Source: a virus | Virus record (IMG/VR): IMGVR_UViG_3300044612_003672 | Span: 1 to 64,000 of that record | Length of the DNA: 64,000 bases | Strand: one strand, 5' to 3' | Shown: positions 10,621 through 64,000 of the stretch, piece after piece | How positions within the stretch are numbered: position 1 is the first letter of the stretch | Layout: the number at the start of each line of letters is the position of its first letter | Program-made: the position numbers and the translations under genes | The notes under the pieces: generated by a model | Databases searched by the model: none | The model's input: the letters and a program-made list of their open reading frames with translations, nothing else | What the model was told of the DNA's origin: nothing

Positions 10621-11391
10621 ATGAAGAATTTCAAAGCATGGTTATTTGAATCGGAAAGTTATATCGATGATAAAACAGTGTCTTACTCAGATTGTTTTGG
10701 CATTATAAGAGATGCCATAAAACTAAGAGATTCAGGAATTAGTGCATCAAGTTTAATTGATGCTAGAATTGGCATGGACACTAAACCATTTTTTTATTTG
10801 GAAGATATCAATAAAGTTTTTCTTGGAAATTTTGGCTCATATCATAGATCAATAATCGATAATCTTAGAATTAGAAATTCTGAAGATGAAAATTTGCGAA
10901 ATGAACTAGCAAGGCTTTATTACGGTCTTTCTGGCGCAAATTCCCCCATGGGAGTAGTTGGTAGAATTGCATATGGAATAAACTACAACAATATTAATAT
11001 TTATATTCCTCGTGATTTGAGAGTTGATTTGGAAAGAAAAAATATGCAAGAACTCAAAGATAAAATGAGGGGCATGGATATCATTGCTTTTTACAAATCA
11101 AAGAGTGGTTCTAAAACTGACGAGAATGTTAAAAAGTGTCTTAAAAAGCTTGAACAAGATGGCCATGTCAGAAATAAAGACAAAACAATTGTAATTAATG
11201 AGAATAAAGTCACCATTTTTGATTCCCTTGAAGATGATTATAAATCTCCTGAAAATGAAAAAGAAGAAATTAAGCTTACAATGCAACAATCAAAAGAAAA
11301 AAGTCGTAGATTTATTCCTAAGCCTCAAACAATGAGACAGGCAGCATACCAAGCTGGTATTCCAATGGGTGATTGGAACACAAATCTTTAG
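10621..11391 (+). CDS. leader-bearing internal-protein candidate, tandem paralogue 1
   Basis: 256 residues. The first 12 residues (MKNFKAWLFESE) form the class-1 leader resembling T4 capsid-targeting sequences. Then comes a domain shared with the next two genes: KPFFYLEDINKVFLGNFGSYH, then GVVGRIAYGINY. A basic tail follows: SRRFIPKPQTMRQAAYQAG, then IPMGDW. I infer capsid packaging. The domain is not recognised; the repeated FIYL-x5-VYLG pattern might be a small sensor or enzyme fold. Confidence 0.7.
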   Translation: MKNFKAWLFESESYIDDKTVSYSDCFGIIRDAIKLRDSGISASSLIDARIGMDTKPFFYLEDINKVFLGNFGSYHRSIIDNLRIRNSEDENLRNELARLYYGLSGANSPMGVVGRIAYGINYNNINIYIPRDLRVDLERKNMQELKDKMRGMDIIAFYKSKSGSKTDENVKKCLKKLEQDGHVRNKDKTIVINENKVTIFDSLEDDYKSPENEKEEIKLTMQQSKEKSRRFIPKPQTMRQAAYQAGIPMGDWNTNL

Positions 11392-11405
11392 TGAATAATA
11401 AAAAT

Positions 11406-12227
11406 ATGAGTAATTTATCTTTTAAGAAATGGTTTAATTTGCGAGAATCTGATGATTATTCTCCTGATATGAAAAATGCTTTAGAAATATTCATGAAACC
11501 AGAAGAAATTTTTGAAATTTCGCCTGCTTCAATTGCAGATGGTAATCTCACAAACACTCACAAGCCATTCATTTATCTAGAATCTACAGATACAGTTTAT
11601 TTGGGCATAGATGAAGGCTATCATAATAATTTAATTTTTCAAAAAATTAAGCAAGATCCAAATATAGGACTGGAACTTCGGAAAGCTTATGATGGAATTC
11701 ACCAATCAGATTCCGATGTTGCTGCTGCTGTTGGCAGAATAGGCTATAAGGTTAATTTTGCCAAATTACAATATAGACTTCCAGCAAATAATATCAAAAA
11801 GTTTTTATATGGAGATGACGAGACAAATTGGCCTGAAATTATAAAAAAGCTAGCCGTTATTCCCTATCCAATTAAACAAATTTTCGATCAAATTGATTTA
11901 ATATCAATTTATCAAACACCGATACCAATCGCAGCATCATCCTGCAAAAAATTACAAGAAAACGGAGAAATTCGTGACCCATTAAAAACCGTTGTATTTC
12001 TTAACAATAAAGTGCATATGTTTAATGAATTAATTACTCATGCATCTTCTCCATCCAGCGAAGAAGAACAATTAGATAAAAAAGAAGAACCTAAAATTAC
12101 AACTCAGCAATCAAAAGAAAGAAGTCGTAGATTTATTCCTAAGCCTGAAACAATGAGACAGGCAGCATACCAAGCTGGTATTCCAATGGGTGATTGGACA
12201 AATTATATTGGCAAAATTTTTCGGTAG
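11406..12227 (+). CDS. leader-bearing internal-protein candidate, tandem paralogue 2
   Basis: 273 residues starting MSNLSFKKWFNLRES, a class-1 leader with LRE|S as a possible protease site. The middle domain shares KPFIYLESTDTVYLG and VGRIGYKVN with its neighbours. The last ~55 residues, including SRRFIPKPETMRQAAYQAG, are nearly identical at DNA level to paralogue 3. A TTG 33 bases upstream extends the frame into the previous gene, but the leader fixes the ATG. No Shine-Dalgarno is visible. Confidence 0.7.
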   Translation: MSNLSFKKWFNLRESDDYSPDMKNALEIFMKPEEIFEISPASIADGNLTNTHKPFIYLESTDTVYLGIDEGYHNNLIFQKIKQDPNIGLELRKAYDGIHQSDSDVAAAVGRIGYKVNFAKLQYRLPANNIKKFLYGDDETNWPEIIKKLAVIPYPIKQIFDQIDLISIYQTPIPIAASSCKKLQENGEIRDPLKTVVFLNNKVHMFNELITHASSPSSEEEQLDKKEEPKITTQQSKERSRRFIPKPETMRQAAYQAGIPMGDWTNYIGKIFR

Positions 12228-12230
12228 ATT

Positions 12231-12240
12231 CTAAATAATA
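12231..12240 (+). promoter_or_regulatory. late-promoter-like box CTAAATAATA
   Basis: CTAAATAATA ends one base before the ATG of the third paralogue, the same geometry as at 47.85, 49.63, 51.35 and 63.19 kb. Confidence 0.5.
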
Positions 12241-12241
12241 T

Positions 12242-13099
12242 ATGTTAAATTTCAAAAAATGGATTGAATTTTTTGAGGCATCTTTGACTAATGAGTTATC
12301 AATTGAAGATGCTGTAAATGCATTTGTTGAACCAAGACCAGAATATGAATTGACAGCATCTACACTTATCGATGCAAACTTGTGTCCAAGCAATAAGTCA
12401 TTTATTTATCTCAGTTCAAAAGACAAAATCTATGTTGGACAAAATGGCGAATATCATAGAGAAATAATCGCAAGAGAAAAAACAATAGATCCCATCTTGG
12501 CATCGGAGCTTCAAAGATCTTACGAGACATCATATGGAGGAGAATCTTATACTGCGCCAGAAAACGCTGTTGGTAGGATTGGCTATGGAGTCAATTATGA
12601 TAGACTTAAAAAAATATTACCACTTGCAAATATCAAAGGTTTTTTGAGCAATGAAAAAGAAATTAGTGATGGAGAAGCAGCAATGCATATTTTTATGCCA
12701 ACATCATTTCCTATCAAAAAATTGTTCAGCGAAATTGATGTCATAGCAATTTATTCTGGAGTCAAAACCCCAATTTCTGTTGCTGCAAGAGCAGTGCAAT
12801 TATTGATGGAGAATTCATCATATTCGCCAAGAAATATAGACAACACAATAGTCATGTATGACAATAAGGCCCATTTTGGCAAAGAATTCATTACTCACGC
12901 ATCTTCTCCATCCAGCGAAGAAGAACAATTAGATAAAAAAGAAGAACCTAAAATTACAACTCAGCAATCAAAAGAAAGAAGTCGTAGATTTATTCCCAAG
13001 CCTCAAACAATAAGACAGGCAGCTTATCAAGCTGGTATTCCAATGGGTGATTGGACAAACTACCCCTACATTTTTAGAGGAAATAATTATAATGGATAA
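12242..13099 (+). CDS. leader-bearing internal-protein candidate, tandem paralogue 3
   Basis: 285 residues. Leader MLNFKKWIEFFEAS; shared domain with KSFIYLSSKDKIYVG and NAVGRIGYGVNYD; shared tail (SRRFIPKPQTIRQAAYQAG, then IPMGDW). The C-terminal ~170 bases match paralogue 2 almost perfectly, a sign of recent duplication or gene conversion. It overlaps the start of the intein gene by eight bases. Function unknown. Confidence 0.7.
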   Translation: MLNFKKWIEFFEASLTNELSIEDAVNAFVEPRPEYELTASTLIDANLCPSNKSFIYLSSKDKIYVGQNGEYHREIIAREKTIDPILASELQRSYETSYGGESYTAPENAVGRIGYGVNYDRLKKILPLANIKGFLSNEKEISDGEAAMHIFMPTSFPIKKLFSEIDVIAIYSGVKTPISVAARAVQLLMENSSYSPRNIDNTIVMYDNKAHFGKEFITHASSPSSEEEQLDKKEEPKITTQQSKERSRRFIPKPQTIRQAAYQAGIPMGDWTNYPYIFRGNNYNG

Positions 13100-14753
13100 G
13101 GTTAATTTTTCAGAATGGCTTGAACTTCGTGAAGAAAAAGATGCCTGTTACCATAAGGTAAAAAGACGATACAAAGTATGGCCATCAGCCTACGCCTGTG
13201 TTCCTACAAAAACTTCAAAAGCACTTACAAAAGAAGGCTGGAAGCATTACGAAGAATTAAGTGTAGGAGATGAAATACTTACATACAGTATGGCAAAGGA
13301 TTCCTTAGAATTTCAACCAATTAAAAATTTGTATTCTTATCAAGACGCTGAAACATATGTAGTTCAAAATGGCAATAAAGGTTTGAAGTTTGAGTGTACT
13401 CCAAATCATAAGTGGGTTGTTAAATATAATTCATGCAAAGAGAATATAGGAACAAAAAAATACACAGATTTAGTTAATGATATGAGGCTTGTCACAACTG
13501 AAGAGTTATTGGCAGACTCTGAAAGCAATGGAAAATTAGTAATAAGTTCAAATTATAGTGACGATAATATTGTAGAATTAGAAAATTTCAATCTTATTGA
13601 GGAAAGAAAAGCTGATGTGTGGTGTCCTGAAACAGATAATGGCACTTGGTTAATGATGCAAGAAAATGATGGACATGAAATTATAACAATTACTGGAAAC
13701 TCAGGCGCACTTGTCCGTTGTCGAAAAGTTGGAGCAAAGAATTGGGGAATATCTGAAAATGTTGATAAAATTGCAATCAGATATTTTCATGAAGATGGTC
13801 GTGGATTAATGAATAATTCATCTTTGAATTATGACAAATTAGATGATGAAGAATATTCCGATGTAGAAGATGAGTATCTAGGATTAAGTCAACCACCATC
13901 AGACTTACACAATAAAAAAATAGTTTTTGCATTTACGCCTGAAGGCGAACAAAAACACAATAGACTAATCGAACTCTTATCTAAAGCATCAAAAAAAGGT
14001 GTTCGTCGTGAAGTCTTAGATTTATCAGATTATCAAATAGAGTGGCAAAGTGGAGATGGTCAACTGGGATTAAAAAAATTAAGAAATCAAAGAGATGAAT
14101 TTCATGAAGGAACTTTTGATTTAGAAAAAGAGAGAGGTCTTCGTGGTTGGTTTGATCGCAACAAAGGAAAAGGATGGATTGATTGCAAAGCCAGTAAAAA
14201 AGGACATCTGGTGCCATGCGGCAGAAAAAAAGCAGGAAAAGGCACTGAACGAAAATATCCTGCTTGCAGACCAACATTAAGTGCCTGCAACAAATCGAAA
14301 CATAAAAAGAAAACTAGTAAGGCAATAAGTTGGAAAACCAAAAGTGAAACTTATTATCACACCACAAACTGCATTTTGGAGGGCATGATGAACAATTATT
14401 ATGAATGGATGAATTCCATAACACACTTTTTTGAAAATCAAGAAAATTATGGGTCTTCATGGGGAGAGATCGAAAATTTTCTAAAAAGAAGCACATGCAA
14501 TGAAAAAAGAGTTCACGGTTTTTGTAGCCACCCAAGATGTGATAAGGCTCAAAATTTGATGGACACCGCAAGTGATGGTTCAGCTATGTCGCCAAATGAC
14601 ATGGAGAGAATTCAAAAATTTATTCATGAAAAATCTTGTTTTTCGATGAGAAAAGAAGGAATGTGTTTTCATCCTGCTTGTCGCACAAATCAAAGACACG
14701 CTGAATGGATTCAGGATCAAATCAATCAAAATTACGGAAGCGAAGCGATCTAG
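13092..14753 (+). CDS. leader-bearing Cys/Lys-rich phage protein interrupted by an intein
   Basis: 553 residues before splicing. Leader MDKVNFSEWLELREE, then the phage motif CYHKVKRRYKVWPSAYA, which continues as SGALVRCRKVGAKNWG after a 168-residue intein (residues 36-203). Later segments are GLRGWFDRNKGKGWIDCKA, PCGRKK, YPACRPTLSAC and paired FCSHPRC / CFHPAC motifs that look like zinc knuckles. The KVWPSAYASGALV module occurs in many T4-like and large phages; its function is unknown. The start is set by the leader; AAATAATTAT precedes it. An overlapping upstream ATG is not used. Confidence 0.75.
   Translation: MDKVNFSEWLELREEKDACYHKVKRRYKVWPSAYACVPTKTSKALTKEGWKHYEELSVGDEILTYSMAKDSLEFQPIKNLYSYQDAETYVVQNGNKGLKFECTPNHKWVVKYNSCKENIGTKKYTDLVNDMRLVTTEELLADSESNGKLVISSNYSDDNIVELENFNLIEERKADVWCPETDNGTWLMMQENDGHEIITITGNSGALVRCRKVGAKNWGISENVDKIAIRYFHEDGRGLMNNSSLNYDKLDDEEYSDVEDEYLGLSQPPSDLHNKKIVFAFTPEGEQKHNRLIELLSKASKKGVRREVLDLSDYQIEWQSGDGQLGLKKLRNQRDEFHEGTFDLEKERGLRGWFDRNKGKGWIDCKASKKGHLVPCGRKKAGKGTERKYPACRPTLSACNKSKHKKKTSKAISWKTKSETYYHTTNCILEGMMNNYYEWMNSITHFFENQENYGSSWGEIENFLKRSTCNEKRVHGFCSHPRCDKAQNLMDTASDGSAMSPNDMERIQKFIHEKSCFSMRKEGMCFHPACRTNQRHAEWIQDQINQNYGSEAI
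13197..13700 (+). other. mini-intein (168 residues, no homing nuclease)
   Basis: It begins with Cys (CVPTKTSKALTKEGWKHYEE, then LSVGDEIL, block A). Block B is ECTPNHKW with the TxxH motif. Block F is ADVWCPETDNGTWLM, and block G ends ITGN followed by extein Ser. Removing it restores the uninterrupted extein PSAYA-SGALV. The size leaves no room for a LAGLIDADG or HNH domain. The usual penultimate His is Gly, as in some phage inteins, so splicing ability should be tested. The presence of all blocks makes the call strong. Confidence 0.88.
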
Positions 14754-16609: not shown

Positions 16610-18175
16610 TCAAGACATGCCTAAAAGATTCTTGGCTTTAGCTTTCACTTCTTCGGCTATTTTCTGACCTGCATCGCTTTTAGCAAGTAGATCAACAACT
16701 TGGGAAAAGTAAAAATAGACTAGAGAAACAAACTTGAATTTACCAGCTATTTCAAGGAAATCTGTGAATCCTGCTCCGTATGCCGTCAGGCCAGCAACTG
16801 TAGGACCAAGTATCGGATTTTTGATTGTGTGCTTTGCCATTCCAAGCATTGTTCCAAGTATCTTATTCAAAGATTCCAATTTCAACTTGTCCCTATCACC
16901 AGATCCAATTCCCTTTATTATTTCGTAAATCGCCAATGCTGCGGCGATTTTCTTACCAGTCAATTCAATCATCTTTGAATAACCAAACAAGAAATCAGCG
17001 CCCTTAATTGTTTTGCTTATTGTTGGATTTTTAGTGGCAAGATCGTAAACATTGGATATTTGAAGGTTTGAAAACATATCTCCAATTACATCATGCAAAG
17101 AATCAACATCTGAAAACATATGATGAGCAGCATCTGCATAACTATGTTCCATAGCCTTGATTCGAGGCGTTCGCCAATCGCCAGATTGTGTTATCGCAGT
17201 TAAGTGGCCAAGGCTGACCCCTGTTCCAATAGTAGTTGGATCAATTATCCCCATATGTTCTTTTTCCTTGCCTATCATCTTCAATAAGTTTTTCTTAGGT
17301 CTGTATGGATTAATTTTGAACTCTTGATTGTTCACACTAAGAACGATCTCATCGCCACTACCAGACTTAACTATTTTGTTGCCAACAATTTGGCACCAGT
17401 CATTCCAAAGAACCTTTGAAATATCATCGCCATACAAATCTTGCAAAGTATCCAAGAATGCTGCATAGCCTCTCATTCCTACATTGCTGTCTTTTGCGAC
17501 AACATCAAGAATTGGGTTTCCTTCTTTGTCCAAAACAACTTTCTTATTTTTTTTCCTCTTTTGCAAAGTAAATCCAGATTTTTTTTCTTTTGCTTTAATG
17601 TCTGCTCTTAACATTGTGTCATATGCTCTGGTATTCACAGAATCGATACAACCGAATTTACCAACTATCAATTGTGTTGCGAAAGCAGCCTTTGTAATTC
17701 CCAATCCCTCCACATTTTGGTAAATGTACTTCCATATTTCAAATTCAGATGAAGTGCTAAGTGATGTGGTTTCACCTTTCATGAGTCGCATGATATTGCT
17801 AAAAATGGAATTTTTATTTTTCCACAAATCAGCGATATAGAAAGCTTGATTTGGTCTTTTTTTGTTTGCGCCTATCATGTTTGCATATTTGTGGAAAGGC
17901 TGTAATTTATAATTCCAATTGTCGGTCCTTACTGCATCTTCAAAAATCCATTTCAAGAATTCAGGGAATGTTTGCCTTACAATCTGCCACTCTTTCTGAA
18001 TTGTATAAAACACGAAAGCAAACACGATGAACATGTTCGTAGAATTGCTTTTTGCAAATTCATTTATTTTTGGGTTATGCAAGCAAAAACCGCTTACTTC
18101 TGAATCTCTTTTTTGACCCAAAGTGATTAAAGTATCTTCTTCGGCAATTAGCCAATCTTTGAAATTAATGTTCAT
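16610..18175 (-). CDS. large leader-bearing protein with C-terminal hydrophobic segments
   Basis: 521 residues. Leader MNINFKDWLIAEE, with IAE|E matching the T4 prohead-protease pattern. A central stretch, GLGITKAAFATQLIVGKFG followed by CIDSVN, is reminiscent of a helix-hairpin region. Two or three hydrophobic segments lie in the last 150 residues (AALAIYEIIKGIG; PTVAGLTAYGAGF; SLVYFYFSQVVDLL). I do not recognise the family; an injected protein that enters the membrane is possible. The ATG overlaps the stop of the upstream exostosin gene and CTAAATA lies just before it. Confidence 0.65.
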   Translation of the reverse strand: MNINFKDWLIAEEDTLITLGQKRDSEVSGFCLHNPKINEFAKSNSTNMFIVFAFVFYTIQKEWQIVRQTFPEFLKWIFEDAVRTDNWNYKLQPFHKYANMIGANKKRPNQAFYIADLWKNKNSIFSNIMRLMKGETTSLSTSSEFEIWKYIYQNVEGLGITKAAFATQLIVGKFGCIDSVNTRAYDTMLRADIKAKEKKSGFTLQKRKKNKKVVLDKEGNPILDVVAKDSNVGMRGYAAFLDTLQDLYGDDISKVLWNDWCQIVGNKIVKSGSGDEIVLSVNNQEFKINPYRPKKNLLKMIGKEKEHMGIIDPTTIGTGVSLGHLTAITQSGDWRTPRIKAMEHSYADAAHHMFSDVDSLHDVIGDMFSNLQISNVYDLATKNPTISKTIKGADFLFGYSKMIELTGKKIAAALAIYEIIKGIGSGDRDKLKLESLNKILGTMLGMAKHTIKNPILGPTVAGLTAYGAGFTDFLEIAGKFKFVSLVYFYFSQVVDLLAKSDAGQKIAEEVKAKAKNLLGMS

Positions 18176-19731: not shown

Positions 19732-20457
19732 ATGATGAATTTCAGGGCATATTTTGAAAAAGTCGAATTGACTCTCAAATACCACGATGATTTGAATCCA
19801 TCTTTTTGGAAGAATGGAATTCTTGACTCAGATGTTAGGGATCATTTGCTCGACATAGCTGAATTCTTTCGTGATTATGCTAATATTCCCAAAGATGCGG
19901 TCAAGGACATAATCTTCACTGGAGGCAACGCAAACTACAATTACACCGAGTTTTCCGATGTTGATGTTCATCTGATAATTGACAAGAAAAAGCTCAAGGT
20001 TTGCGATCCTGAAATCATGGATGATTATCTTAGTGATAAAAAAGCCTTAATAGCTCTTACTCACAATATCAAGATAAAAGGATTTCCTGTTGAGTTGTAT
20101 GCACAAGATGAGAAACAAGCCACATCATCTGACCAAGGAGTATTCAGTTTGAAAGACAATAAATGGATTAAAAAACCAGCCAAGAAACAAATTAATCTAA
20201 GAGATCCCTATCTTGTTAAAAAGATAAAAGATATTGAAAATCAAATTAAAAGATTCATTGACGGTAAATCAAAAGATGTTAAAGAGATGGATGACTATAA
20301 AGAAAAATTGAGAAAAATGCGAGGATCAGCAGTTCAGCATGGAGGAGAATTCAGTTTGGAAAATTTGGCATTCAAAGAATTGAGAAATAGAGGACTTCTT
20401 GAGAAGTTTTCTGACTATATTAAGGATGTCGAAGACAACAGGCTCACTCTTAAATAA
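19732..20457 (+). CDS. leader-bearing nucleotidyltransferase-fold protein
   Basis: 241 residues. Leader MMNFRAYFEKVE, then KYHDDLNPSFW and a nucleotidyltransferase signature: GGNANYNYTEFSDVDVHLII (about 64-83), with the two metal Asp in DVD and a third acid possibly in FPVELYAQD. Related proteins occur in T4-like phages. It could transfer a nucleotide to tRNA, protein or a small molecule; the target cannot be read from sequence. Two adjacent ATGs are possible starts. Confidence 0.75.
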   Translation: MMNFRAYFEKVELTLKYHDDLNPSFWKNGILDSDVRDHLLDIAEFFRDYANIPKDAVKDIIFTGGNANYNYTEFSDVDVHLIIDKKKLKVCDPEIMDDYLSDKKALIALTHNIKIKGFPVELYAQDEKQATSSDQGVFSLKDNKWIKKPAKKQINLRDPYLVKKIKDIENQIKRFIDGKSKDVKEMDDYKEKLRKMRGSAVQHGGEFSLENLAFKELRNRGLLEKFSDYIKDVEDNRLTLK

Positions 20458-20482: not shown

Positions 20483-21160
20483 ATGTTAACTAATTATCGA
20501 GATTGGAGAAGAAAATTTAGGGAAGATTTTGCATCTTCTTTCCCCAATTCAAAAAGAAAATGGGTTTCCATAGAAAAGTCCCATATAATCGAAGATCCTG
20601 ATTTGGCTCAACAAATTTTTGATCTTATTGATGATGCCTACAAAGGAATAGGCGGAAATGCCAATATTAGGTCGAAACATGATTTAACTAGCGAGTTTTT
20701 GAAGGGCGATCTTTCAGTAGTGAAGGCTATTGATTTGGATGACGATTCTGATCCAGATGCTGTGATTGGCTATAAGCGCACAGACAAAGGCAATAAGGCT
20801 GTTCTTTCGGCAGCTAAAGGATCGAGCGAAGAAGCTAAAAAATTATTGATTGACAAAAAGAAAGAGGAATTCAATAAAGGTGACGCTTATGGCGAAGTGT
20901 CTGGACCTCTTGCTAAGAAATTAATTGATGCTACAGTTCCTGTGATAGAGGACGAGGAAACTGTTAGGAGCATGTTGCCCGGCAAAAATATCATATGGCA
21001 CGGTGAACATCCAGAGCTTGCAACTTTGCCACCTAAAATAGCAGCAACATTTGGCAAGCATAAAGGTTGGTACACTAGGTTGATTGGTGGACACCCTCAT
21101 ACAAAATTGATGATAGGCTTGAGAAATAAGCCCGGCCAAGTAACTGAAATTGGCGACTGA
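20483..21160 (+). CDS. GNAT-like phage protein, possible leader
   Basis: 225 residues beginning MLTNYRDWRRKFRED, a looser version of the class-1 leader. The body, with DLAQQIFDLIDDAYKGIGGN and a later DDDSDPDAVIGYKRTDKG, resembles a T4-like phage family with an acetyltransferase-like fold. The C terminus has GWYTRLIGGHPHTKLMIGL. AGAGGT precedes the ATG. It follows the nucleotidyltransferase gene by 25 bases. Enzyme activity is uncertain. Confidence 0.6.
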   Translation: MLTNYRDWRRKFREDFASSFPNSKRKWVSIEKSHIIEDPDLAQQIFDLIDDAYKGIGGNANIRSKHDLTSEFLKGDLSVVKAIDLDDDSDPDAVIGYKRTDKGNKAVLSAAKGSSEEAKKLLIDKKKEEFNKGDAYGEVSGPLAKKLIDATVPVIEDEETVRSMLPGKNIIWHGEHPELATLPPKIAATFGKHKGWYTRLIGGHPHTKLMIGLRNKPGQVTEIGD

Positions 21161-23462: not shown

Positions 23463-24515
23463 ATGAATAAGTTCAAAAGCTGGTTGTTAGATCGTGACAC
23501 TAATCTTCTGGAAACCATGTCCAGAGAAAAAATGATGGAAGATGATCTTGATGCCTTGAATTATGCAAAAAAGCAAAAAAGACAAGAAAAAGAACTTGAT
23601 GAAAAAATTCGTATAATTAAGTATCTTGCTAAAATTAAGAAAAAAATAGAACAATTCGTTGACGCACACGACAAAGGCGCTCAAGCTCTTAAGCTGATAG
23701 CAGCATCTTTGTTGACTCACGAAAAGGGCAGAGAAGGCATTAAAACCCATGTTCGTCATGTTTATAGCAAGGATTTGAAAAGCCTCAAAGACTTGCAGAA
23801 GATTTTCACTCATGAAAACTTGATCAAGCTTTTCCACGATGTTGATGCTCTCCACTCTTTGAGCATGATATTGGATTCCGATTTTGAAAGTCATGTCGGC
23901 AATTTGGAAAAAGATTCTCAACACGGTCATATTGATCATTCACATGGCGAGTTGGGCAAAAAATTTGCAAGTTTTGTTGTGAGCCATATCAAGCATGCTG
24001 CTGACGATGTTTTAGCATCATTCCTTCAAGATCATAATAAAGATGAAGGTCAAGACGACGATGTTCCTCAAGATCAGGAATCTGGCGATGAAGCCGTTCC
24101 AGATATGTCTGCTGATGAAATGAATCCTGATATGGAAGTAGGCGGTTCAGCACAAGATGCAGGTCAAATGGGTCAGGATGCAGGTCAAATGGGCCAAGAT
24201 GCAGGTCAAATGGGTCAGGATGCAGGTCAAATGGGTCAAGATGCAGGTCAAATGGGCCAAGATGCAGGCCAAATGGGTCAGGATGCAGGCCAAATGGGCC
24301 AAGATGCAGGCCAAATGGGCCAAGATGCAGGCCAAATGGATCAGGATGCAGGCCAAATGGATCAGGATGGATCTTCAGAAGACAATGCTTTGATGCCACC
24401 TGTTGGTATGGCCGCTCCTCAAAGACCTGCTGGCGCAGAAGGTGCAGAAGGTGCAGAAGGTGCAGAAGGTGCAGAAGAAGATGAAACGCAAACAGCAGCA
24501 GCACCATCTGTGTAA
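23463..24515 (+). CDS. leader-bearing protein with QDAGQMG repeats
   Basis: 350 residues. Leader MNKFKSWLLDRDT; a charged helical N-terminal half with coiled-coil character (to about 190); then acidic, low-complexity C-terminal parts: ten tandem QDAGQM(G/D) heptads and a GAEGAEGAEGAE stretch. The acidic disordered tail recalls scaffold or head-core proteins of T4-like phages, which are acidic and processed; this is inference. The gene has the special terminator/late-promoter leader described just upstream. Confidence 0.65.
   Translation: MNKFKSWLLDRDTNLLETMSREKMMEDDLDALNYAKKQKRQEKELDEKIRIIKYLAKIKKKIEQFVDAHDKGAQALKLIAASLLTHEKGREGIKTHVRHVYSKDLKSLKDLQKIFTHENLIKLFHDVDALHSLSMILDSDFESHVGNLEKDSQHGHIDHSHGELGKKFASFVVSHIKHAADDVLASFLQDHNKDEGQDDDVPQDQESGDEAVPDMSADEMNPDMEVGGSAQDAGQMGQDAGQMGQDAGQMGQDAGQMGQDAGQMGQDAGQMGQDAGQMGQDAGQMGQDAGQMDQDAGQMDQDGSSEDNALMPPVGMAAPQRPAGAEGAEGAEGAEGAEEDETQTAAAPSV
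24153..24362 (+). repeat. ten tandem 21-bp repeats
   Basis: Ten copies of CAAGATGCAGGTCAAATGGGT with small variations, each coding for QDAGQM(G/D). All are in frame, so copy number can change by slippage without breaking the protein. Confidence 0.9.
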
Positions 24516-24536: not shown

Positions 24537-24797
24537 ATGAAGGAACTACTCTATCTTTCTGGCGTTATCAATGAAAGCCAGTTTCATGAATCTAAGGGAA
24601 AAGATGGAATCAAGCATTACATGTTTTTTTCCAATCTTAAAACAATCAAAGATATGGTTGATGAAATCTTAAAAATGGATCAAAAGATGATCGACAAATC
24701 TTTGGATGATGGACATGATTGGGCTAGCGATCACATTACAAGCAGCAGGGACGACATTGAAGAAGTTCATAATTGGGTTAAAAGCAGAATAAAGTAG
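24537..24797 (+). CDS. class-2 leader protein
   Basis: 86 residues beginning MKELLYLSGVINESQFHE. The LYLSGVINE|S segment matches the second leader type seen in four other proteins here, with INE|S as a likely protease site. The rest is a short helical acidic domain. AAGGAG precedes the ATG. It lies 21 bases after the repeat protein, probably in the same late operon. Confidence 0.65.
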   Translation: MKELLYLSGVINESQFHESKGKDGIKHYMFFSNLKTIKDMVDEILKMDQKMIDKSLDDGHDWASDHITSSRDDIEEVHNWVKSRIK

Positions 24798-27521: not shown

Positions 27522-27569
27522 GGTTTTTGTCCTTTCGTCATATGGAATCCCATCAAATTATGGTGAAGG

Positions 27570-27649: not shown

Positions 27650-27673
27650 TTTAAGCTTAATGGAGTAAGGCTC

Positions 27674-43193: not shown

Positions 43194-43802
43194 ATGTCAC
43201 AAGAAAGCATGCATTATATTCAGTATCTTTCAGGAATTATTTCTGAAGAAAGATTCTATGAAATTGAAGAACAATTTAATGAAGGATTGGCCAGAAATCT
43301 TATGGGAGCAGGCGCTCTTGCAATGGGAAGTCTTTTCGGAGGACCATCTGCTTCAGCCCAAACACCACCTCCAGCAGCAATAACGAAGAGTGTCGATGAA
43401 TTCGGTGTTGATGATGATGAAACCGTTCATCATGATGCAAAACAATACACAAAAGAACTAGTTGCCAAATTAAGGATTCACAGAAATGGTTTTGAAGACA
43501 AATATGGCAGAGAAGGAGCGGATTTAGGAAGAATGACAATCAATAAAATTATCAAAGCTGAATCTTCACCAAATGGAAAAAAAGTTATTGTGACTATTTC
43601 TGGAATGGCAAGAGGTACTAAAGGATCATTACCCGGAAAATCAGAAGAAGCGATTAAGTCTTTAATGGGTCAAGCAGGATCTGTGAGAGTTTTTGGAGTA
43701 GAAAATAGCGGCAAATGGATGGGAGAAGTTCCTGAAGACATCGTCTCTCCCGGTTCTAAATTATACCCATTTACTGCCCAAGTTGTAATCACGGGCAAAT
43801 GA
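43194..43802 (+). CDS. class-2 leader protein with glycine-rich hydrophobic segment, copy B
   Basis: 202 residues. N terminus as in copy A (MSQESMHYIQYLSGIISEER; GLARNLMGAGALAMGSLFGG), then a different C-terminal domain from about residue 60: an alpha/beta unit with YTKELVAKLRIHRNGFEDKY, VIVTISGMARGTKG and a final AQVVITGK. Unrecognised. GAGGG precedes the ATG. Confidence 0.7.
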   Translation: MSQESMHYIQYLSGIISEERFYEIEEQFNEGLARNLMGAGALAMGSLFGGPSASAQTPPPAAITKSVDEFGVDDDETVHHDAKQYTKELVAKLRIHRNGFEDKYGREGADLGRMTINKIIKAESSPNGKKVIVTISGMARGTKGSLPGKSEEAIKSLMGQAGSVRVFGVENSGKWMGEVPEDIVSPGSKLYPFTAQVVITGK

Positions 43803-49712: not shown

Positions 49713-50507
49713 TCAAGACTCAATCCAATCCTGTCCATTATGAACTAAAATTTTAGTCACAGGTAAAGAACTTTCTCCTGTGTACTTCAAAGCCATAGGA
49801 TTCTTTCCATAATTATTCTGGAAAAACCAAGATTCTAACTTTTTATGCAATTCTGGATTACGATCCTGATGAGCATAATAAAAAGGAGCTATATTAGATG
49901 CTGCTCCTGCACTGTAATAAGGGTTATCATTCAACAAAGGATCACGAACACTTCCGATTCTACCGGGAAATTTACCATACAAATTTCTGTATTCAGGATT
50001 CTTCTTGATAGTCGAAAATGGAACTGGCTCGGCATCAATACCAGTCAACTTTTCTCCAACTTCATCCTTTGACAAATATTTTTTTGTCTTGTCTGTTAAA
50101 TTAACATCTCCCAACTTGTTCAGCTTTCCAACTCTTTTAGAAGCATAAGTAAGAATGTCTTTCGCATGATTCTCAATGTCCAAATCCCATTCACCAAAAT
50201 CAATATTTGGAACATCTATTACAACAACTATAGGATTACCCTCTAAAGAACCCTTCAAACCATACAATTCTCTTTTCATACGAGCCAAAGCATGAGTTTT
50301 TGCGCTTTCATCCGATGTCCAAAGAAACAAACCACCTCCCTGACCATGACCATATCCCGAAGACCTAGCACCATCCCTCTTAAATGAATTCAATACCTCA
50401 TCGTCCTTTCCAGAACTAGTTCCATGATAAAACCTGAAAGGACCACTAATAACAAAATCATCAGAATAAACCTCATCATGTCGAAGCCAATCTTTGAAAT
50501 ATATCAT
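49713..50507 (-). CDS. leader-bearing ADP-ribosyltransferase-like protein
   Basis: 264 residues. Leader MIYFKDWLRHDE. FRFYHGTSSGKDDEVLNSF followed by GQGGGLFLWTSDESAKTHA matches the first half of ART folds (Y-H-G-T strand, then GxGLY/F-T-S). His28 would bind NAD. T4 packages an ART, Alt, in its head by a similar N-terminal signal, so this could be a functional counterpart. A catalytic Glu cannot be assigned with confidence. Confidence 0.6.
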   Translation of the reverse strand: MIYFKDWLRHDEVYSDDFVISGPFRFYHGTSSGKDDEVLNSFKRDGARSSGYGHGQGGGLFLWTSDESAKTHALARMKRELYGLKGSLEGNPIVVVIDVPNIDFGEWDLDIENHAKDILTYASKRVGKLNKLGDVNLTDKTKKYLSKDEVGEKLTGIDAEPVPFSTIKKNPEYRNLYGKFPGRIGSVRDPLLNDNPYYSAGAASNIAPFYYAHQDRNPELHKKLESWFFQNNYGKNPMALKYTGESSLPVTKILVHNGQDWIES

Positions 50508-50523
50508 AAATTATTAATCCCAT

Positions 50524-51267
50524 TTATCTATAAATCCACTCACTCTGACGCATATATCCCGGCATTCCTAATCCACGCATCCCAGCTTCCCAATCTCCAC
50601 GACTACTAACCTTCACTCCACCCAATCCTAACTTCTCCATAGCAGCCTTCTTCTCAACTGGATTCATCAAATGTAACCTCTGACGCAATTCCAATTTCTC
50701 ACGATCAGAATCACTCATAGCCACACCAACATTTCCACCCATTACCTTACTTATATGTACCGTTCCCAACAAAGGCGTACTTACAAAAACATCCTTACCT
50801 ACAAAATATTCTTCCATAGACCTCAAACAATCTACCAAATTGCGTGAATATACAGATTTCTCATCATTCCAAAAACTCACTAACAAAAACTTAACCTTCA
50901 TATTATCATCTTTTTTCCTACTATCAAGAAATATAGACCAATTTCCCATCCTTCCCATTAAATCATGCTTAATTCCCTTTACCCTGTAATCATAACTACT
51001 ATCATATCCCAAACTGTCCCGCCTATCCTGCAACTCATCCCTCATATCAATCAAATCTACATGATTCCTAAAATTAATATTGTCAACATCACTAGTATAC
51101 AACTTACCACCAGATACCACTTCCTTACCCAAATATATAAATAGACGCTTAATCTGATTAGAACCTAAACCAAATATGTCATCAGGTATGTCATCAGGAC
51201 TCATATAAGGCCCCTCTAAATCAACATCAAATGACTCCACATAACTCAACCATTCCCTAAAACTCAT
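50524..51267 (-). CDS. leader-bearing hypothetical protein
   Basis: 247 residues. Leader MSFREWLSYVES. Alpha/beta body with KVKFLLVSFWNDEKSVYSRN and a later VSTPLLGTVHISKVMGGNVG; unrecognised. GGAG precedes ATG 51267; a longer reading starts four residues earlier but breaks the leader. It lies 16 bases before the ART-like gene. Confidence 0.6.
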   Translation of the reverse strand: MSFREWLSYVESFDVDLEGPYMSPDDIPDDIFGLGSNQIKRLFIYLGKEVVSGGKLYTSDVDNINFRNHVDLIDMRDELQDRRDSLGYDSSYDYRVKGIKHDLMGRMGNWSIFLDSRKKDDNMKVKFLLVSFWNDEKSVYSRNLVDCLRSMEEYFVGKDVFVSTPLLGTVHISKVMGGNVGVAMSDSDREKLELRQRLHLMNPVEKKAAMEKLGLGGVKVSSRGDWEAGMRGLGMPGYMRQSEWIYR

Positions 51268-52349: not shown

Positions 52350-52378
52350 TTTTAATTTATATTTTACTAAATTAGTTC

Positions 52379-53125: not shown

Positions 53126-53171
53126 TTTTAATTTTCACTGCAATAAATGTCGAAAACAAGATTGAGGATTT

Positions 53172-53918: not shown

Positions 53919-53947
53919 TTTTAATTTATATTTTACTAAATTAATTT

Positions 53948-54700: not shown

Positions 54701-54706
54701 GGATTT

Positions 54707-55508: not shown

Positions 55509-56585
55509 TTATACCGAAATTTCAGGATCATTTTGGACAATGTTTGGCTGATTAATTTGATTCCTACTATTCTTTGTTCTAAGCCAATCATTAGGAAGTC
55601 CAAGACTTATTCCATATTCCTCTTCACCTTCGTATTTTCTAGCTGCCAACGGATGTCCAGAATAGGCATGTTTTCTTGTGCTCAACCATCTATTTAATAA
55701 TGTTCTATTTGGAGGATAATTACCATTAACTTTGTAATAGTTGGCAAGTTCCTCAATTTTTTGATTATTTTTTTCTTGTAATTTTTCAGTAGTAATTTGT
55801 AGTTTGAGCCAATCATTCGGAAGACCAAGACTTATTCCATATTGCTCTTCTCCTTCATACTTGTTTAATTTTCCTCTTCCTGCATATGTTTGTCTTTTTG
55901 CTTTAATCCAATTATGCAATTTTTCTTCTTCTTTTAATTTGGCAAAAGGGTATCTTTTCCATTTTGTATAAAATTCCGCAAGTTCTTCTACTTTTTTGAA
56001 ATTTTGATTTTTTCTTAATTTGTCAAGTTCTACTGACAAATCTGGATTTATTGGTATCGATTCATCATTAAAAACTTTTTCTCTTTGGTCTCTAACTTTT
56101 TCTGGAACTAAAGGATTTGCGTAATTTTCTTGGAATCCCTCTGACTTAATGAATTCTTTTATGATATTTTCCATATTGTTAATTTCCCAATAAGGAATCA
56201 CAAGAAGAGGAATATTGTTTTCCTTGCAAAAATCATATTTTATTTTGTCTCTTAAAACACTTCCTTTGAAATGTGTAATTTCTCTGTGCCAATGTTTGGT
56301 AAATTTATAATGTTGCGCTCCATGAAATTCAACAACATATCTTCTGTTGTTTTCCTCAACTAAAAATGAAGCATCAAATCTCAAACATTTTTTATTGACA
56401 CATTTATCAAACTGATATTGAACATCATGAGATCCAAATAATCTTTTAAGTATTTCGCCAAGTAAAACTTCACCCTTCGATATTGACGGAACTATTGATT
56501 TATTTTGTCTTATGATTGGAGAAATAGTTGCAGTGCCATCTACAAATTCTGATTCTTCTCGATATAACCAAAGTTTGAAATTCAT
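55509..56585 (-). CDS. leader-bearing PD-(D/E)XK nuclease with HA-like repeats
   Basis: 358 residues. Leader MNFKLWLYREESEF. Nuclease domain at about 40-150: SKGEVLLGEILKRLFG, LRFDASFLVEEN, YVVEFHGAQHY and LRDKIKYDFCKENNIPLLVI, the D...E-x-H/K pattern of Vsr/DUF2726-like restriction folds. Two C-terminal ~65-residue repeats follow, each ending KYEGEE-x-YGISLGLPNDWL, like helicase-associated DNA-binding domains. It may cut host or rival DNA after injection. The TTG before the ATG is ignored. Confidence 0.7.
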   Translation of the reverse strand: MNFKLWLYREESEFVDGTATISPIIRQNKSIVPSISKGEVLLGEILKRLFGSHDVQYQFDKCVNKKCLRFDASFLVEENNRRYVVEFHGAQHYKFTKHWHREITHFKGSVLRDKIKYDFCKENNIPLLVIPYWEINNMENIIKEFIKSEGFQENYANPLVPEKVRDQREKVFNDESIPINPDLSVELDKLRKNQNFKKVEELAEFYTKWKRYPFAKLKEEEKLHNWIKAKRQTYAGRGKLNKYEGEEQYGISLGLPNDWLKLQITTEKLQEKNNQKIEELANYYKVNGNYPPNRTLLNRWLSTRKHAYSGHPLAARKYEGEEEYGISLGLPNDWLRTKNSRNQINQPNIVQNDPEISV

Positions 56586-56745: not shown

Positions 56746-57846
56746 TTATGAAGAAATTTCAGGATCATTTTGGACAATGTTTGGCTGATTAATTTGATTC
56801 ATACTATTCTTTGTTCTAATCCACTTTGTTCTAAGCCAATCATTAGGAAGTCCAAGACTTATTCCATATTCCTTTTCACCTTCGTATTTTGCAACAGCAC
56901 CTCTTCCCTGATATGCTTGTCTTTTGCTACTAAGCCAATTTTTTAATTGTTTTTCTGATTCTATTTTGCTTCTTTCGCTGGGATATTTTCCATTATCCCT
57001 GTAAAATGCAGCAAGTTTTCTTATTCTATCGTAATGTTCTTCTTTTGTAGTAATAATTTGTGGTTTAAGCCAATCATTCGGAAGCCCAAGACTTATTCCA
57101 TATTCCTCTTCACCTTCGTATTTTGCATATTTCCCTCTTCCCAGATATATTTGCCTTTTGTCAGCAAGCCATCTTCCTAATTGATTTTCTGATTCTATCT
57201 TGCTCCCAATACTGGGATATTTTCCACTATCTCTGTAAAATGAAGCAATTTCTTGTATTTTTTGATTATTTTTTTCTTGTAATTTTAATTTTTCATTAGT
57301 AATTTGTAGTTCGAGCCAATCATTAGGAAGTCCAAGACTTATTCCATATTCTTTTTCTCCTTCATATTTTCCAACAGCACTTCTTCCCTGATATGCTTGC
57401 CTTTTGCCATTAAGCCAAATTCCTAATTGTTTTTCTGATTCTATTTTGCTAAATTGTCTGGGATATTTTCCATTATCCTTGTAAAATACAGCAAGTTGTC
57501 TTATTTTTTGATTATTTTTTTCTTGTAATTTTTCTTCACTAAATTGTGGTTTAACCCAATCATTAGGAAGTCCAAGACTTATCCCATATTGCTCTTCACC
57601 TTCGTATTTTGCAGCACCAGACCCTCTTCCCAGATATGCTTGTCTTCTTTTATTAAGCCATCTTCCTAATTGTTTTTCTGATTCTATTTTGCTTACAGTG
57701 CTGGGATATTTTCCATTATCCTTGTAAAATACAGCAAGTTGTCTTATTTTTTGATTATTTTTTTCTTTATTTATGGTTGGATAAATAGTTGCAGTGCCAT
57801 CTGCAAATTCTGATTCTTCTCGATATAACCAAAGTTTGAAATTCAT
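56746..57846 (-). CDS. leader-bearing protein of five HA-like repeats
   Basis: 366 residues. Leader almost the same as the nuclease (MNFKLWLYREESEF), then five ~65-residue repeats: NNQKIRQLAVFYKDNGKYPS, ESEKQLGRWLNKRRQAYLG, KYEGEEQYGISLGLPNDW. There is no nuclease domain. Both proteins end NQINQPNIVQNDPEIS. The repeats resemble helicase-associated domains, which bind DNA. It looks like a duplicate in which the nuclease was replaced by more repeats. Confidence 0.7.
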   Translation of the reverse strand: MNFKLWLYREESEFADGTATIYPTINKEKNNQKIRQLAVFYKDNGKYPSTVSKIESEKQLGRWLNKRRQAYLGRGSGAAKYEGEEQYGISLGLPNDWVKPQFSEEKLQEKNNQKIRQLAVFYKDNGKYPRQFSKIESEKQLGIWLNGKRQAYQGRSAVGKYEGEKEYGISLGLPNDWLELQITNEKLKLQEKNNQKIQEIASFYRDSGKYPSIGSKIESENQLGRWLADKRQIYLGRGKYAKYEGEEEYGISLGLPNDWLKPQIITTKEEHYDRIRKLAAFYRDNGKYPSERSKIESEKQLKNWLSSKRQAYQGRGAVAKYEGEKEYGISLGLPNDWLRTKWIRTKNSMNQINQPNIVQNDPEISS

Positions 57847-61113: not shown

Positions 61114-61115
61114 GG

Positions 61116-61568
61116 TTAGATTCCATGCTTGATAGGTTTAATTAGATAAACGACACCAGAATCATAATCTATAAAATCGACGACATCCATTTTATACTTA
61201 TTCTTTAACCAAATATCAAAAGAATTATAAAAGTCTACAATCGAATCATCATAATTTTTCAGCTTCTGAATGTGATCAAGAGGAATTTCAAGTTTAACTT
61301 TATGCAATTCCTCTGGTTCTGTGATATTCCACCTATCAACCAGATCAGTTTCATTTTGCCAAAATTCTTTTGCTTCTCTATCACTCAGAGGAATCCAATT
61401 TTTAGCATCATTAACCAATGATGAGAAAAACTCATTGTCTGTTTTTTTATTCTCATTCAACCATTCCGCAAAAGAAAATTTATTTTCTTTAACACAATTT
61501 GGAACTGTTCTTCCACCTTTCTTTTTCATGCCTACTTGCTTATAACCTCTCCAACAAGCCTCATTCAT
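61116..61568 (-). CDS. phage protein with CWRGYKQVGMKKKG motif and internal leader
   Basis: 150 residues. ACWRGYKQVGMKKKGGRTV then PNCV is a motif common in large phages. It is followed by FSFAEWLNENK at about 31-41, a class-1 leader-like segment with LNE|N, here internal. The C-terminal domain (LDHIQKLKNYDDSIVDFY...) is unrecognised. GAGGA precedes the ATG. Confidence 0.65.
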   Translation of the reverse strand: MNEACWRGYKQVGMKKKGGRTVPNCVKENKFSFAEWLNENKKTDNEFFSSLVNDAKNWIPLSDREAKEFWQNETDLVDRWNITEPEELHKVKLEIPLDHIQKLKNYDDSIVDFYNSFDIWLKNKYKMDVVDFIDYDSGVVYLIKPIKHGI

Positions 61569-61619: not shown

Positions 61620-62807
61620 TCACGGTGCCCATTTATCATACTTCTCGTCTTTTTGTTGAACCCAATTACGATCATGACCATGCTGATTGATCCTATATGG
61701 CAATTCAAAACCAAATATTATTTCCATAGGAGAAGAACTAGAATTGTAAATACTACCAGTGTTGTGTATATTAGAAAATAATTTCTTCTGTTCTTCAGGT
61801 AAATTTTTAGCCCAATTATAATAATCTTCCTGAAAATCCAAATACTTCAACTTATATTTCTGAATATCATTAGCATCATCTACAATCTTATGAATATTAT
61901 TTCTTATAAGTTCTATCTTTTCTAAAACATTTTTATACTCTTCTTTCATGCTCTTAAGACGATTAAAAAATTTATCATTTTCCACAGATTTCTTCCACTC
62001 ATCAAAATCCATAGTTGCTACTACATCACTTATTATAACAGAATCATATGACCTATAACCCCTTTCATCTGAACTCAAATATTCACCACCAGTATCGTGA
62101 ACAGTCTTTTTAATCTGCTCAATAACTATATCGTCAATGGCTTCATATCCAGAAAAAGGATTATATAAATTAGGAATCTTCTTCACAAAACTTGTTCTGT
62201 ATTTTATAGGATATATCTCAAATTCATAAGAAATATACTTAGAAGGATTCTCTGGAGCCTTTTTGCCCGGAGGAACCATCACCTCGCCCGGATACTTAGG
62301 AATCTCAATTTCACCAGACCTAAGTTTGGCAATAGTATCTTCAAAAGATACAGAACTTTTCATGTTATTTACAGCATCTTTAACCAAAACATTAATTGAT
62401 ATCATACGACCTTTTTCTACCTTCTGCTCCTTACCTTTATAACGCAAAAATACAGCATTCTTTTCTACCCTATACTCAAAATCATGAGGAATCAAATTGT
62501 GCAAATCCACGCAACCAGCGCAAACACCGGGATCAACTATTATAGCACCACTATTCTTATCGCTAGGCTTAGTGTCAAACTTGAAAATACATTCCTGAAA
62601 ATGAAAAAAACAACATCGACCTTCCTTACCTCTCTCAGGAAATGCTATTTTATGAACACCTTCAATTTCACCAATTATACCTCTTCTACCTTCACTCCAA
62701 CTAACCTTTACCTTCTGCCCCCTCTGCAAATCATGCTCCAATAACTCCTCATATACTGACTCATTCAAAACACCAGCTAACTTCAAGATTTCATATTTTT
62801 CTTTCAT
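61620..62807 (-). CDS. class-2 leader protein
   Basis: 395 residues. MKEKYEILKLAGVLNESVYE is a class-2 leader with LNE|S. Next QRGQKVKVSWSEGRRGIIGE resembles a small beta (KOW-like) fold; VCAGCVDLHNL has a Cys pair; the C-terminal third is a coiled coil. Unrecognised. GGAG is six bases before ATG 62807. Confidence 0.65.
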   Translation of the reverse strand: MKEKYEILKLAGVLNESVYEELLEHDLQRGQKVKVSWSEGRRGIIGEIEGVHKIAFPERGKEGRCCFFHFQECIFKFDTKPSDKNSGAIIVDPGVCAGCVDLHNLIPHDFEYRVEKNAVFLRYKGKEQKVEKGRMISINVLVKDAVNNMKSSVSFEDTIAKLRSGEIEIPKYPGEVMVPPGKKAPENPSKYISYEFEIYPIKYRTSFVKKIPNLYNPFSGYEAIDDIVIEQIKKTVHDTGGEYLSSDERGYRSYDSVIISDVVATMDFDEWKKSVENDKFFNRLKSMKEEYKNVLEKIELIRNNIHKIVDDANDIQKYKLKYLDFQEDYYNWAKNLPEEQKKLFSNIHNTGSIYNSSSSPMEIIFGFELPYRINQHGHDRNWVQQKDEKYDKWAP

Positions 62808-62842
62808 GATATACTCCATAAAACTATAATCTTATATATCAC

Positions 62843-62920
62843 TTATTCAAACTTTGTAACATGTCCACAACCAAGCTTTTCGTATAAATTCCGACCAGAG
62901 ATTATATCATGATCTGTCAT
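62843..62920 (-). CDS. 25-residue peptide gene or remnant
   Basis: MTDHDIISGRNLYEKLGCGH... begins in a TGATG overlap with the upstream gene. It may be translated by coupling, or be the 3' remnant of a larger gene; the sequence CEGCV precedes it in frame. Confidence 0.3.
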   Translation of the reverse strand: MTDHDIISGRNLYEKLGCGHVTKFE

Positions 62921-63123
62921 CACACAACCCTCACAAATATCTCATTAGACCATTGATGATTATCAGAAAAACATTGCGATCTCGTTACCCAAGATCTACT
63001 GAAAAATCTACTCAAATCTTGATAAGATGTGAAAGCACAACTACTTGTATGACTGTTAACACGAACAAGAGATTCTTCCTTCCAGATAGAATGCTTCGGT
63101 GTATTTGCACTAAAATTAATCAT
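62920..63123 (-). CDS. small Ser-rich protein of the leftward operon
   Basis: 67 residues: MINFSANTPKHSIWKEESLV, then SSCAFTSYQDLSRFFSRSW. Three Trp and many Ser; the opening resembles MILRANTHNK of the 60.37 kb gene. Probable first gene of the operon. Confidence 0.5.
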   Translation of the reverse strand: MINFSANTPKHSIWKEESLVRVNSHTSSCAFTSYQDLSRFFSRSWVTRSQCFSDNHQWSNEIFVRVV

Positions 63124-63190
63124 AATCCCACAATACCTCAACCAATCCAAACCGTAAAACCATAAAAAACATTTTTATACACAAAAATAA

Positions 63191-63200
63191 CTAAATAATT
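63191..63200 (+). promoter_or_regulatory. late promoter CTAAATAATT abutting a start codon
   Basis: CTAAATAATT, one C, then ATG. This is the clearest rightward copy. Confidence 0.6.
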
Positions 63201-63201
63201 C

Positions 63202-64000
63202 ATGAATAATTTCAAGTATTGGCTAAACATACAAGAAGGACTAGCTCTAAAAGGAGGATTCAAAGGAAGCTGGTTCCAAAGACTAGTAGCAGCAATGTAT
63301 GTACTAGCACCAGAATCAGAACAAGAAGCAGTCCAACTCTACATAGCACCAAATGGACTAACAAACGCAATCAATCACCAATTCAACCAACTACAAACCA
63401 AATACACCCACCACCTAAGCAAATCCGACCCATTCAAAAGCAGCAAAGAACTCGCCAAACATATAGATGACCAAAAAAAAGCAGGAATCAAAAAACCATC
63501 TGTACCTTCATATGACGCAGAACTAGGTCCAAATATCACACAAGACCAAAAAGGGCACCCAGTCTGGAATAAAGACCAAGACCAAAAATTCGGATGGGTA
63601 CACGACCTCTTAACTCACTATGCCGGTAAATTACCATTCGATGCCCGTGGAGAAGCAAAAGCTTACCTCAAACACCTAAAAACACTACCACCTCATTTAG
63701 CACCAATACTATTCACAGAAATTATCGCCCAAACATCATACTACTACATCTATGGAGACTTCCCTAAACAAAAAGTAACTATACTCAAAGACTTCGATCA
63801 CATCAATGTCGGAAAACTTAACCCACAATCAAAACTAAATCAATTCTTTGAATTCAAAAACAAAGAACTTATACCCAAAAAAAATATAAAATTAGAAGAA
63901 CTAAAATCAGTAAACCCACTACTACCAACTATACTCAAAAACCAAGAATCAAGATGGCATAACAACGACAAACCTAAACACAAACTCGATACACTAAACC
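63202..64000 (+). CDS. leader-bearing protein, 3' end outside the window
   Basis: Open for 266 codons to the right edge. Leader MNNFKYWLNIQEG with IQE|G. Next GGFKGSWFQRLVAAMYVLAP, then a charged alpha/beta body. Unrecognised. The late box and leader confirm the start. Confidence 0.7.
   Translation, partial: MNNFKYWLNIQEGLALKGGFKGSWFQRLVAAMYVLAPESEQEAVQLYIAPNGLTNAINHQFNQLQTKYTHHLSKSDPFKSSKELAKHIDDQKKAGIKKPSVPSYDAELGPNITQDQKGHPVWNKDQDQKFGWVHDLLTHYAGKLPFDARGEAKAYLKHLKTLPPHLAPILFTEIIAQTSYYYIYGDFPKQKVTILKDFDHINVGKLNPQSKLNQFFEFKNKELIPKKNIKLEELKSVNPLLPTILKNQESRWHNNDKPKHKLDTLN

Follow-up and report, generated by a model that had tools for sequence, protein, structure and literature searches.

A short N-terminal leader resembling the T4 capsid-targeting sequence precedes diverse proteins of a large T4-type phage

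INTRODUCTION

The internal proteins IPI, IPII and IPIII of bacteriophage T4 and their capsid-targeting sequence were reportedly described by Mullaney and Black in 1996. Diverse internal proteins of the T-even phages share this sequence, and IPI, probably also IPIII, has an anti-defence function (PMC3012670, PMC9391042). The first ten residues of IPIII, MKTYQEFIAE, are enough for packaging; in mutants of IPIII, targeting depends on residues 4 and 7 and processing on residues 8 and 10, and the prohead protease gp21 cleaves behind L/I-X-E (PMC9026906). Here we analyse a stretch of 64,000 nucleotides of viral DNA (the window), which comprises bases 1-64000 of IMG/VR record IMGVR_UViG_3300044612_003672 (G000), a virus record of 71,123 bp that is itself fragmentary. 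Seventeen genes of the window, on both strands, begin with a leader of the form M-x-[NT]-F-x-x-[W/F]-L-...-E. This leader is very probably a capsid-targeting sequence of the T4 type, carried by a cargo that would be packaged, injected and exchangeable.

We regard the system as a modular and enlarged version of the one formed by the T4 internal proteins. Like IPI, IPII and IPIII, it combines a short leader in which an aromatic, an aromatic, an aliphatic and a Glu follow in this order with a gp21-type protease and a basic, diverse cargo (PMC3012670, PMC9026906). Unlike them, it comprises over 30 genes where T4 has a handful, its cargo is bigger and enzymatic, Trp is favoured as the second aromatic, and the Glu lies at +5 or +8. 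A late-promoter box 10-11 bases before the ATG without a Shine-Dalgarno sequence, the arrangement of the genes in arrays and the swaps between sister phages also set it apart. T4 Alt, a packaged and injected ADP-ribosyltransferase (ART), likewise carries a propeptide at its N terminus, which is cut at ITE-6 (PMC5694885), but the sequence of that propeptide differs and the ART-like proteins reported here were recognized by eye. In the phiKZ-type giants (SPN3US, phiKZ and 201phi2-1), numerous proteins of the inner head are cleaved behind Glu by a prohead protease, as is predicted here from the genes; their propeptides are long and diverse with S/A/G-x-E sites (PMC5694885), whereas a single short common leader occurs here in a T4-type phage. 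Polyvalent and MuF-fused effectors also include varied enzyme domains, among them ART, Nudix and 2H, that are thought to be packaged and injected (PMC5512222, PMC9503650), but these are fused in one large protein or onto a head protein, while here each cargo has its own gene and its own removable label. In the searchable literature, outside which most subscription journals lie, there was no report of dozens of leader genes per phage, of a late box of the leaderless type or of a leader serving as an exchange joint.

RESULTS

A common leader in one phage population

The window is a piece of a large T4-type phage. Record G001 (80 kb) continues G000 leftward with an overlap identity of 98.6-99.6%, and record G007 (136.7 kb) continues it rightward with an overlap of 9.9 kb at 99.99% identity. 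The three records together cover ∼255 kb of a single phage population, in which 295 genes were called. Genes were called with a simple in-house caller, so that starts are approximate and some genes can be missed (42411- was left uncalled). Three starts were revised from those of the longest open reading frame (11406 not 11373, 13092 not 13047 and 42411 not 42480).

In G000, 14 of 76 called starts matched a strict regular expression for the leader, compared with 0.58 (maximum 4) for shuffled N termini. Across six records the strict pattern was found at 50 of 566 starts versus 5 of 2425 internal methionines. The seventeen leader genes of the preliminary description are confirmed for the window (Table 1), where shuffled N termini would give about 1. 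We also built a leader profile, scored by leave-one-out at a threshold of 0.2% false positives. It retrieved 16 of 83 genes in G000 (0.25 expected), 15 of 137 in G007 (0.45), 2 of 75 in G001 (0.5), 13 of 39 in G006 (0.05) and 19 of 234 in G002 (0.7). The match at 43925+, one of the 16 in G000, was dropped, as by eye this start belongs to a DegT-type aminotransferase-like protein. For the whole phage population the leader is present on 33 of 295 genes where 1.2 are expected. Since the training sequences had been preselected by pattern, these counts carry some bias toward the training records despite leave-one-out. LR756511, a 595-kb uncultured phage genome, is unaffected and constitutes an independent test because it was absent from the training; here 37 of 877 genes scored (1.35 expected), including 543819+, which was dropped as primase/helicase-like by eye. 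The leader profile is therefore found elsewhere in the genome, as the preliminary description had proposed to check.

The same description held that the domains behind the leader are unrelated. They are mostly distinct, but paralogues are present: 10621, 11406 and 12242 form one group, 47853 and 49623 have a common domain, and 56585 and 57846 have common repeats. Given these three groups, BLAST reduces the 17 genes to 13 cargo families.

Agreement with the T4 capsid-targeting sequence

A profile trained without T4 was scored on 230 T4 genes. IPI ranked 2nd, above the threshold, and IPII and IPIII ranked 12th-13th, below it. Rank 1 was taken by gp61.1, which begins MKTFKEFIKED and is annotated as hypothetical; from its sequence we predict that gp61.1 is an internal head protein. 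Its gene (NC_000866, 18966-19130, minus strand) adjoins the anti-defence gene 61.2 (adfA).

Of 102 leaders, 58 have their first aromatic, mostly F, at residue 4 and 20 have it at residue 3; a second aromatic three residues on is built into the definition of the profile. The order is thus F at about residue 4, W or F at +3, then L and then Glu, and the positions mapped by mutation in T4 IPIII coincide with the conserved positions of the leader. The resemblance to the T4 sequence that had been noted by eye is borne out by this agreement and by the retrieval of the internal proteins with the T4-free profile. Relative to the first aromatic, Glu peaks at +5 (44%) and +8 (43%). A [LIFVMYW]-x-E site lies close to the end of 89 of 102 leaders, which is partly imposed by the motif; at the unforced positions (F+7 and F+8) a hydrophobic residue two before the Glu is enriched 3.2-fold (p 9e-6). 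The gp21 sites within gp22, gp23 and gp24 are not marked by the leader profile, which argues that the motif is more than a bare protease site.

The head block of G007 is of the T4 type and contains gp20, gp21, a gp22-like gene and gp23. Profile searches identified the portal protein gp20 (Portal_T4, E 5e-75) and the major capsid protein gp23 (Gp23, E 3e-88), while the gp22-like gene was assigned from position and composition. The gp21-like protease for which a search had been suggested was found in this record, which overlaps that of the window, as a Peptidase_S77 match (E 2.7e-26 to 5e-25), and LR756511 also encodes a Peptidase_S77 protease. The protease and the recurring leader profile, whose absence would have spoken against the preliminary description, are thus both present. 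The gp23 closest to that of G007 is the one of LR756511, with 80.9% identity; other phage records were below 60%. In both genomes gp23 is flanked by leader genes. The T4-type portal gene of G007 (12026-14533, minus strand) contains an intein, a clear profile match.

A late-promoter box close to the ATG

A TAAATA box within 20 bases before the ATG was found in 20 of 33 leader genes versus 7 of 262 other genes (odds ratio 56, p 7e-17). In 17 of these leader genes the box begins, with its first T, exactly 10 bases before the ATG, and in three it begins 11 bases before it; among T4 genes the box peaks 27-35 bases before the ATG. Only one of these 20 leader genes has a Shine-Dalgarno sequence, and the corresponding counts are 0/7 in G006, 0/5 in G002 and 0/9 in LR756511; among genes without a close box the frequency is 50-72% in four data sets. 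T4 late transcripts begin a few bases beyond the box. With the box only 10-11 bases from the ATG, the transcript is consequently predicted to start at the AUG, which suggests that the late mRNAs of the leader genes are leaderless. The late promoters of T4 and of cyanophages have been given as TATAAATA and NATAAATA, respectively (PMC2984593).

The L position of the leader is encoded by eleven codons and the F position by both its codons, and the leader peptide is retained in the 13 leader genes that lack the box, most of which have a Shine-Dalgarno sequence. It is therefore the peptide, rather than the DNA, that is conserved. In LR756511, 23 leader-free genes have a box near the ATG, mostly without a Shine-Dalgarno sequence, and leaderless late genes may be a broader class in these phages. 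The window contains sigma factor genes at 625-1539 (+), 27488-28669 (+) and 21181-22032 (-), two by profile and the third sigma-like by eye; one of them may recognize the TAAATA box.

Arrays and exchange of cargo

About 15 leader genes form an array at 83.6-97.3 kb of G007. In the sister contigs L200 and L201, whose flanks are 98-99% identical to G007, a single leader-NUDIX gene stands in place of the four leader genes that G007 has at 94128-97270. At G007 92474 the identity is complete from leader codon four on and the DNA upstream is unrelated; at G007 90977 the leaders differ and the match begins at the closing Asn-Glu of the leader. Near-identical phages thus swap cargo cassettes, and the breakpoints fall inside the leader or at its end. 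The domain of 19732+ also occurs in its homologue from cyanophage S-CRM01, where no leader precedes it. These breakpoints and the leader-free homologue indicate that the leader is a module separable from the cargo and often the place of crossover.

The cargo proteins

BLAST of the parts behind the leader sorted 124 proteins, some of them weak or of the second type described below, into 107 families. Profiles named ankyrin repeats (49623-) and helicase-associated (HA) repeats (57846-) in the window, S-adenosylmethionine (AdoMet) decarboxylase (83588) and a poly(A)-polymerase/CCA head domain (86966) in G007, and NUDIX in G006 (32922) and L200 (5910-). For the NUDIX class, packaging into the virions of myoviruses has been argued (PMC9503650). 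By motif, 19732+ is a putative nucleotidyltransferase, 42411- is possibly kinase-like and some proteins resemble HExxH peptidases; several proteins with a YHxT motif may be ADP-ribosyltransferases, and LR756511 has candidates for a C39-like peptidase and a 2H phosphoesterase, all of these calls being unconfirmed. AlphaFold2 models of 42411- and 50507-, which by eye are kinase-like and ART-like, had predicted local distance difference test scores of 47 and 31, respectively, and both domain calls remain guesses at the level of motifs. A phmmer search against PDB found nothing similar to 42411- or 50507-, and its match for 56585- was at chance level; tblastn against isolated phages gave no match for 42411-, 50507- and 49623-. 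The body of 63202+ has a distant match (28%, E 8e-9) in one part of gp205 from Rhodococcus phage E3, which carries the annotation structural protein.

Cargo proteins are more basic than the products of other genes (median isoelectric point 8.1 versus 6.0; 58% versus 29% above 8), and T4 IPII and IPIII are likewise basic. At 83588-85485 of G007 (plus strand), the leader-AdoMet decarboxylase gene adjoins a leader-free gene that by eye is AdoMet synthetase-like; the two would form a polyamine pair with one member packaged. In S-CRM01, the protein annotated as serine/threonine kinase PKN8 (101508-103973, minus strand) starts with MISFDQFLSEKKSE, the second-best leader score of S-CRM01.

A second N-terminal motif

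A second motif, overlooked in the preliminary description, reads roughly [KY]-L-[SA]-G-[VI]-[IL]-[NS]-E (also written YLSG[VI]I[NS]E) and occurs in five genes of G000 where 0.4 are expected. Its end resembles a gp21 site, and the motif may serve as a further head address. In G007 it is also present on a small gene (11709-) that lies between gp20 and gp21.

Table 1. Genes with leaders or leader-like N termini in and beside the window. Start codons lie at the first coordinate on the plus strand and at the second on the minus strand; a slash separates the leader from the residue that follows it
Coordinates	Strand	Leader	Cargo	Upstream signal and remarks
10621..11391	+	MKNFKAWLFE/S	paralogue of 11406 and 12242	GTAAATAA box directly before ATG
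11406..12227	+	MSNLSFKKWFNLRE/S	paralogous to 10621	
12242..13099	+	MLNFKKWIEFFE/A	paralogous to 10621	CTAAATAAT box, 11 bases before ATG
13092..14753	+	MDKVNFSEWLELRE	motif CYHKVKRRYKVWPSAYA split by Hint/intein-like insert (weak profile matches)	
16610..18175	-	MNINFKDWLIAE/E	521 amino acids, no known family	CTAAATA box
19732..20457	+	MMNFRAYFEKVE	nucleotidyltransferase-like (PHROG 36119)	
20483..21160	+	MLTNYRDWRRKFRE (weak form)	no named family	Shine-Dalgarno present
23463..24515	+	MNKFKSWLLDRD	Gln/Asp-Ala-Gly-rich repeats	
40561..41613	+	MKSIFVKWLEIYSRDE (weaker)	no named family	Shine-Dalgarno present
41617..42411	-	MTTFREFVAKSE	kinase-like motifs (by eye)	GTAAATAA box; leader gene found by eye
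45544..47853	-	MLNFSEWFYFNE/A	769 amino acids, relative of 49623	CTAAATAAT box
47956..49623	-	MLNFREWLLINE/T	ankyrin repeats	CTAAATAAT box
49713..50507	-	MIYFKDWLRHDE	FYHGT motif (ART-like, by eye)	
50524..51267	-	MSFREWLSYVE/S	no named family	
55509..56585	-	MNFKLWLYRE/E	HA-type repeats, possible nuclease domain (by eye)	ATAAATAAT box
56746..57846	-	MNFKLWLYRE/E	HA repeats, E 2.6e-11	ATAAATAAT box
61116..61568	-	FSFAEWLNE (leader-like)		∼30 residues inside, behind CWRGYKQVGMKKKGG module
63202..64000 (ends at record base 64008)	+	MNNFKYWLNIQE/G	similar to Rhodococcus phage E3 gp205	CTAAATAAT box
66258 (start, record coordinate)	-	MNLSFYDYVFMREA		right of window
24537..24797	+	MKELLYLSGVINE/S		second leader type
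37262..37618	-	MYAWLKLSGLNE/S		second leader type, short form
42490..43122	+	contains YIQYLSGIISEE		second leader type; N-terminal module common with 43194
43194..43802	+	N-terminal module of 42490	body different from 42490	second leader type
61620..62807	-	MKEKYEILKLAGVLNE/S		second leader type

Five consecutive paralogous glycosyltransferase-like genes, each encoding ∼248 amino acids, also lie in the window (51606-55453, plus strand).

DISCUSSION

If the leader is a capsid-targeting sequence, its genes would be expressed late, mostly from their own late promoter, with an mRNA starting at or beside the AUG. Through its leader the protein would bind to the scaffold core while the prohead forms, and a gp21-type protease would then cleave behind the leader Glu ([hydrophobic]-x-E) and so remove the leader. 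The mature, mostly basic protein would remain with the packaged DNA and enter the next host. The cargo, made up of enzymes and other proteins, would be large and change quickly; it would act on the host ahead of phage gene expression, probably mainly in counter-defence. The unit of promoter, ATG and leader would be the joint where close relatives exchange their cargo genes. From the genes we infer that the proteins reside in virions, are cut after the leader Glu and are injected; leaderless transcription and the role assigned to the cargo have the same basis.

Several observations weigh against this explanation. The leader Glu lies at +5 or +8, compared with +6 in T4, and 13 of 102 leaders lack the hydrophobic-x-E site. 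The profile gives no score to the cleavage region of gp23, either in T4 or in G007. With a median of 256 and a maximum of 769 amino acids, the cargo is far larger than the T4 internal proteins, and some of it looks metabolic (AdoMet decarboxylase), unlike an attack protein. The gp21-type protease was not found in the record fragment of the window itself, although it is present in the overlapping G007.

The alternatives differ in what they take the conserved segment to be. One can accept a head-targeting signal and suppose that the proteins are scaffold or head-maturation parts, degraded or retained in the capsid, rather than injected effectors. gp21 does also cut the T4 core proteins gp22, gp67 and gp68 (PMC9026906), and several leader proteins of LR756511 are small, hydrophobic or of low complexity. 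We nevertheless consider this unlikely, as AdoMet decarboxylase, the poly(A)-polymerase head and NUDIX are enzyme domains alien to heads, and fast exchange between near-identical phages is unlike the behaviour of essential head parts. The proposal that the stretch is required in the mRNA, as a leaderless or Shine-Dalgarno-free start region, with the peptide a by-product, draws on the 20 of 33 leader genes that have a -10 box and hardly any Shine-Dalgarno sequence. The codon variety at L and F, the peptide kept in the 13 box-free genes, the 23 box genes of LR756511 without a leader, and the T4 internal proteins, which have the peptide without a close box, make it very unlikely.

A short, amphipathic N terminus rich in aromatics might also target a membrane or an intracellular compartment with no involvement of the head. 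Its positionwise agreement with the T4 capsid-targeting sequence, the retrieval of the T4 internal proteins by the profile, the acidic cut site and the presence of gp21 in the phage render such a destination extremely improbable. Finally, there is practically no chance that the leader is a loose motif picked out by eye or the mark of a single duplicated family. Three paralogous groups in the window and a few probable false positives (43925+ and LR 543819+) point in that direction, but the shuffle and internal-methionine controls refute it and the 124 leader proteins fall into 107 families.

The capsid-targeting explanation can be extended to the phage as a whole. It would be a huge T4-type phage, probably of Planctomycetota, with a generalized injection platform: dozens of single-gene enzyme cassettes, each with its own leaderless late promoter and a removable head address, set in arrays and traded among co-circulating phages by recombination at the promoter-leader joint. 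We give this wider picture an even chance. A planctomycete is perhaps the host, on the evidence of one gene. A DUF1559/N-methylation prepilin-like gene of the window (2951-4027, minus strand) is at most 76% identical to planctomycete-titled homologues, and 79 of the best 80 of its 202 genome matches are titled planctomycete. It lies inside a 1.3-kb segment missing in G001, so that it looks recently gained; the flanking alignments overlap by ∼22 bases, a boundary like that of a short repeat.

If the leader is what we propose, the injected arsenal of a phage could be read from sequence by its address label, uncultured huge phages included, and about a hundred protein families of no assigned role would be turned into a short list of candidates for effectors of the first strike and for counter-defence. 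Proteins could perhaps also be loaded into phage heads with the leader, which is a candidate tool for this purpose. From the constant distance between promoter and ATG follows a testable claim, namely that a T4-type late system makes leaderless mRNAs, and the prediction for gp61.1 falls in T4, the best-studied phage.

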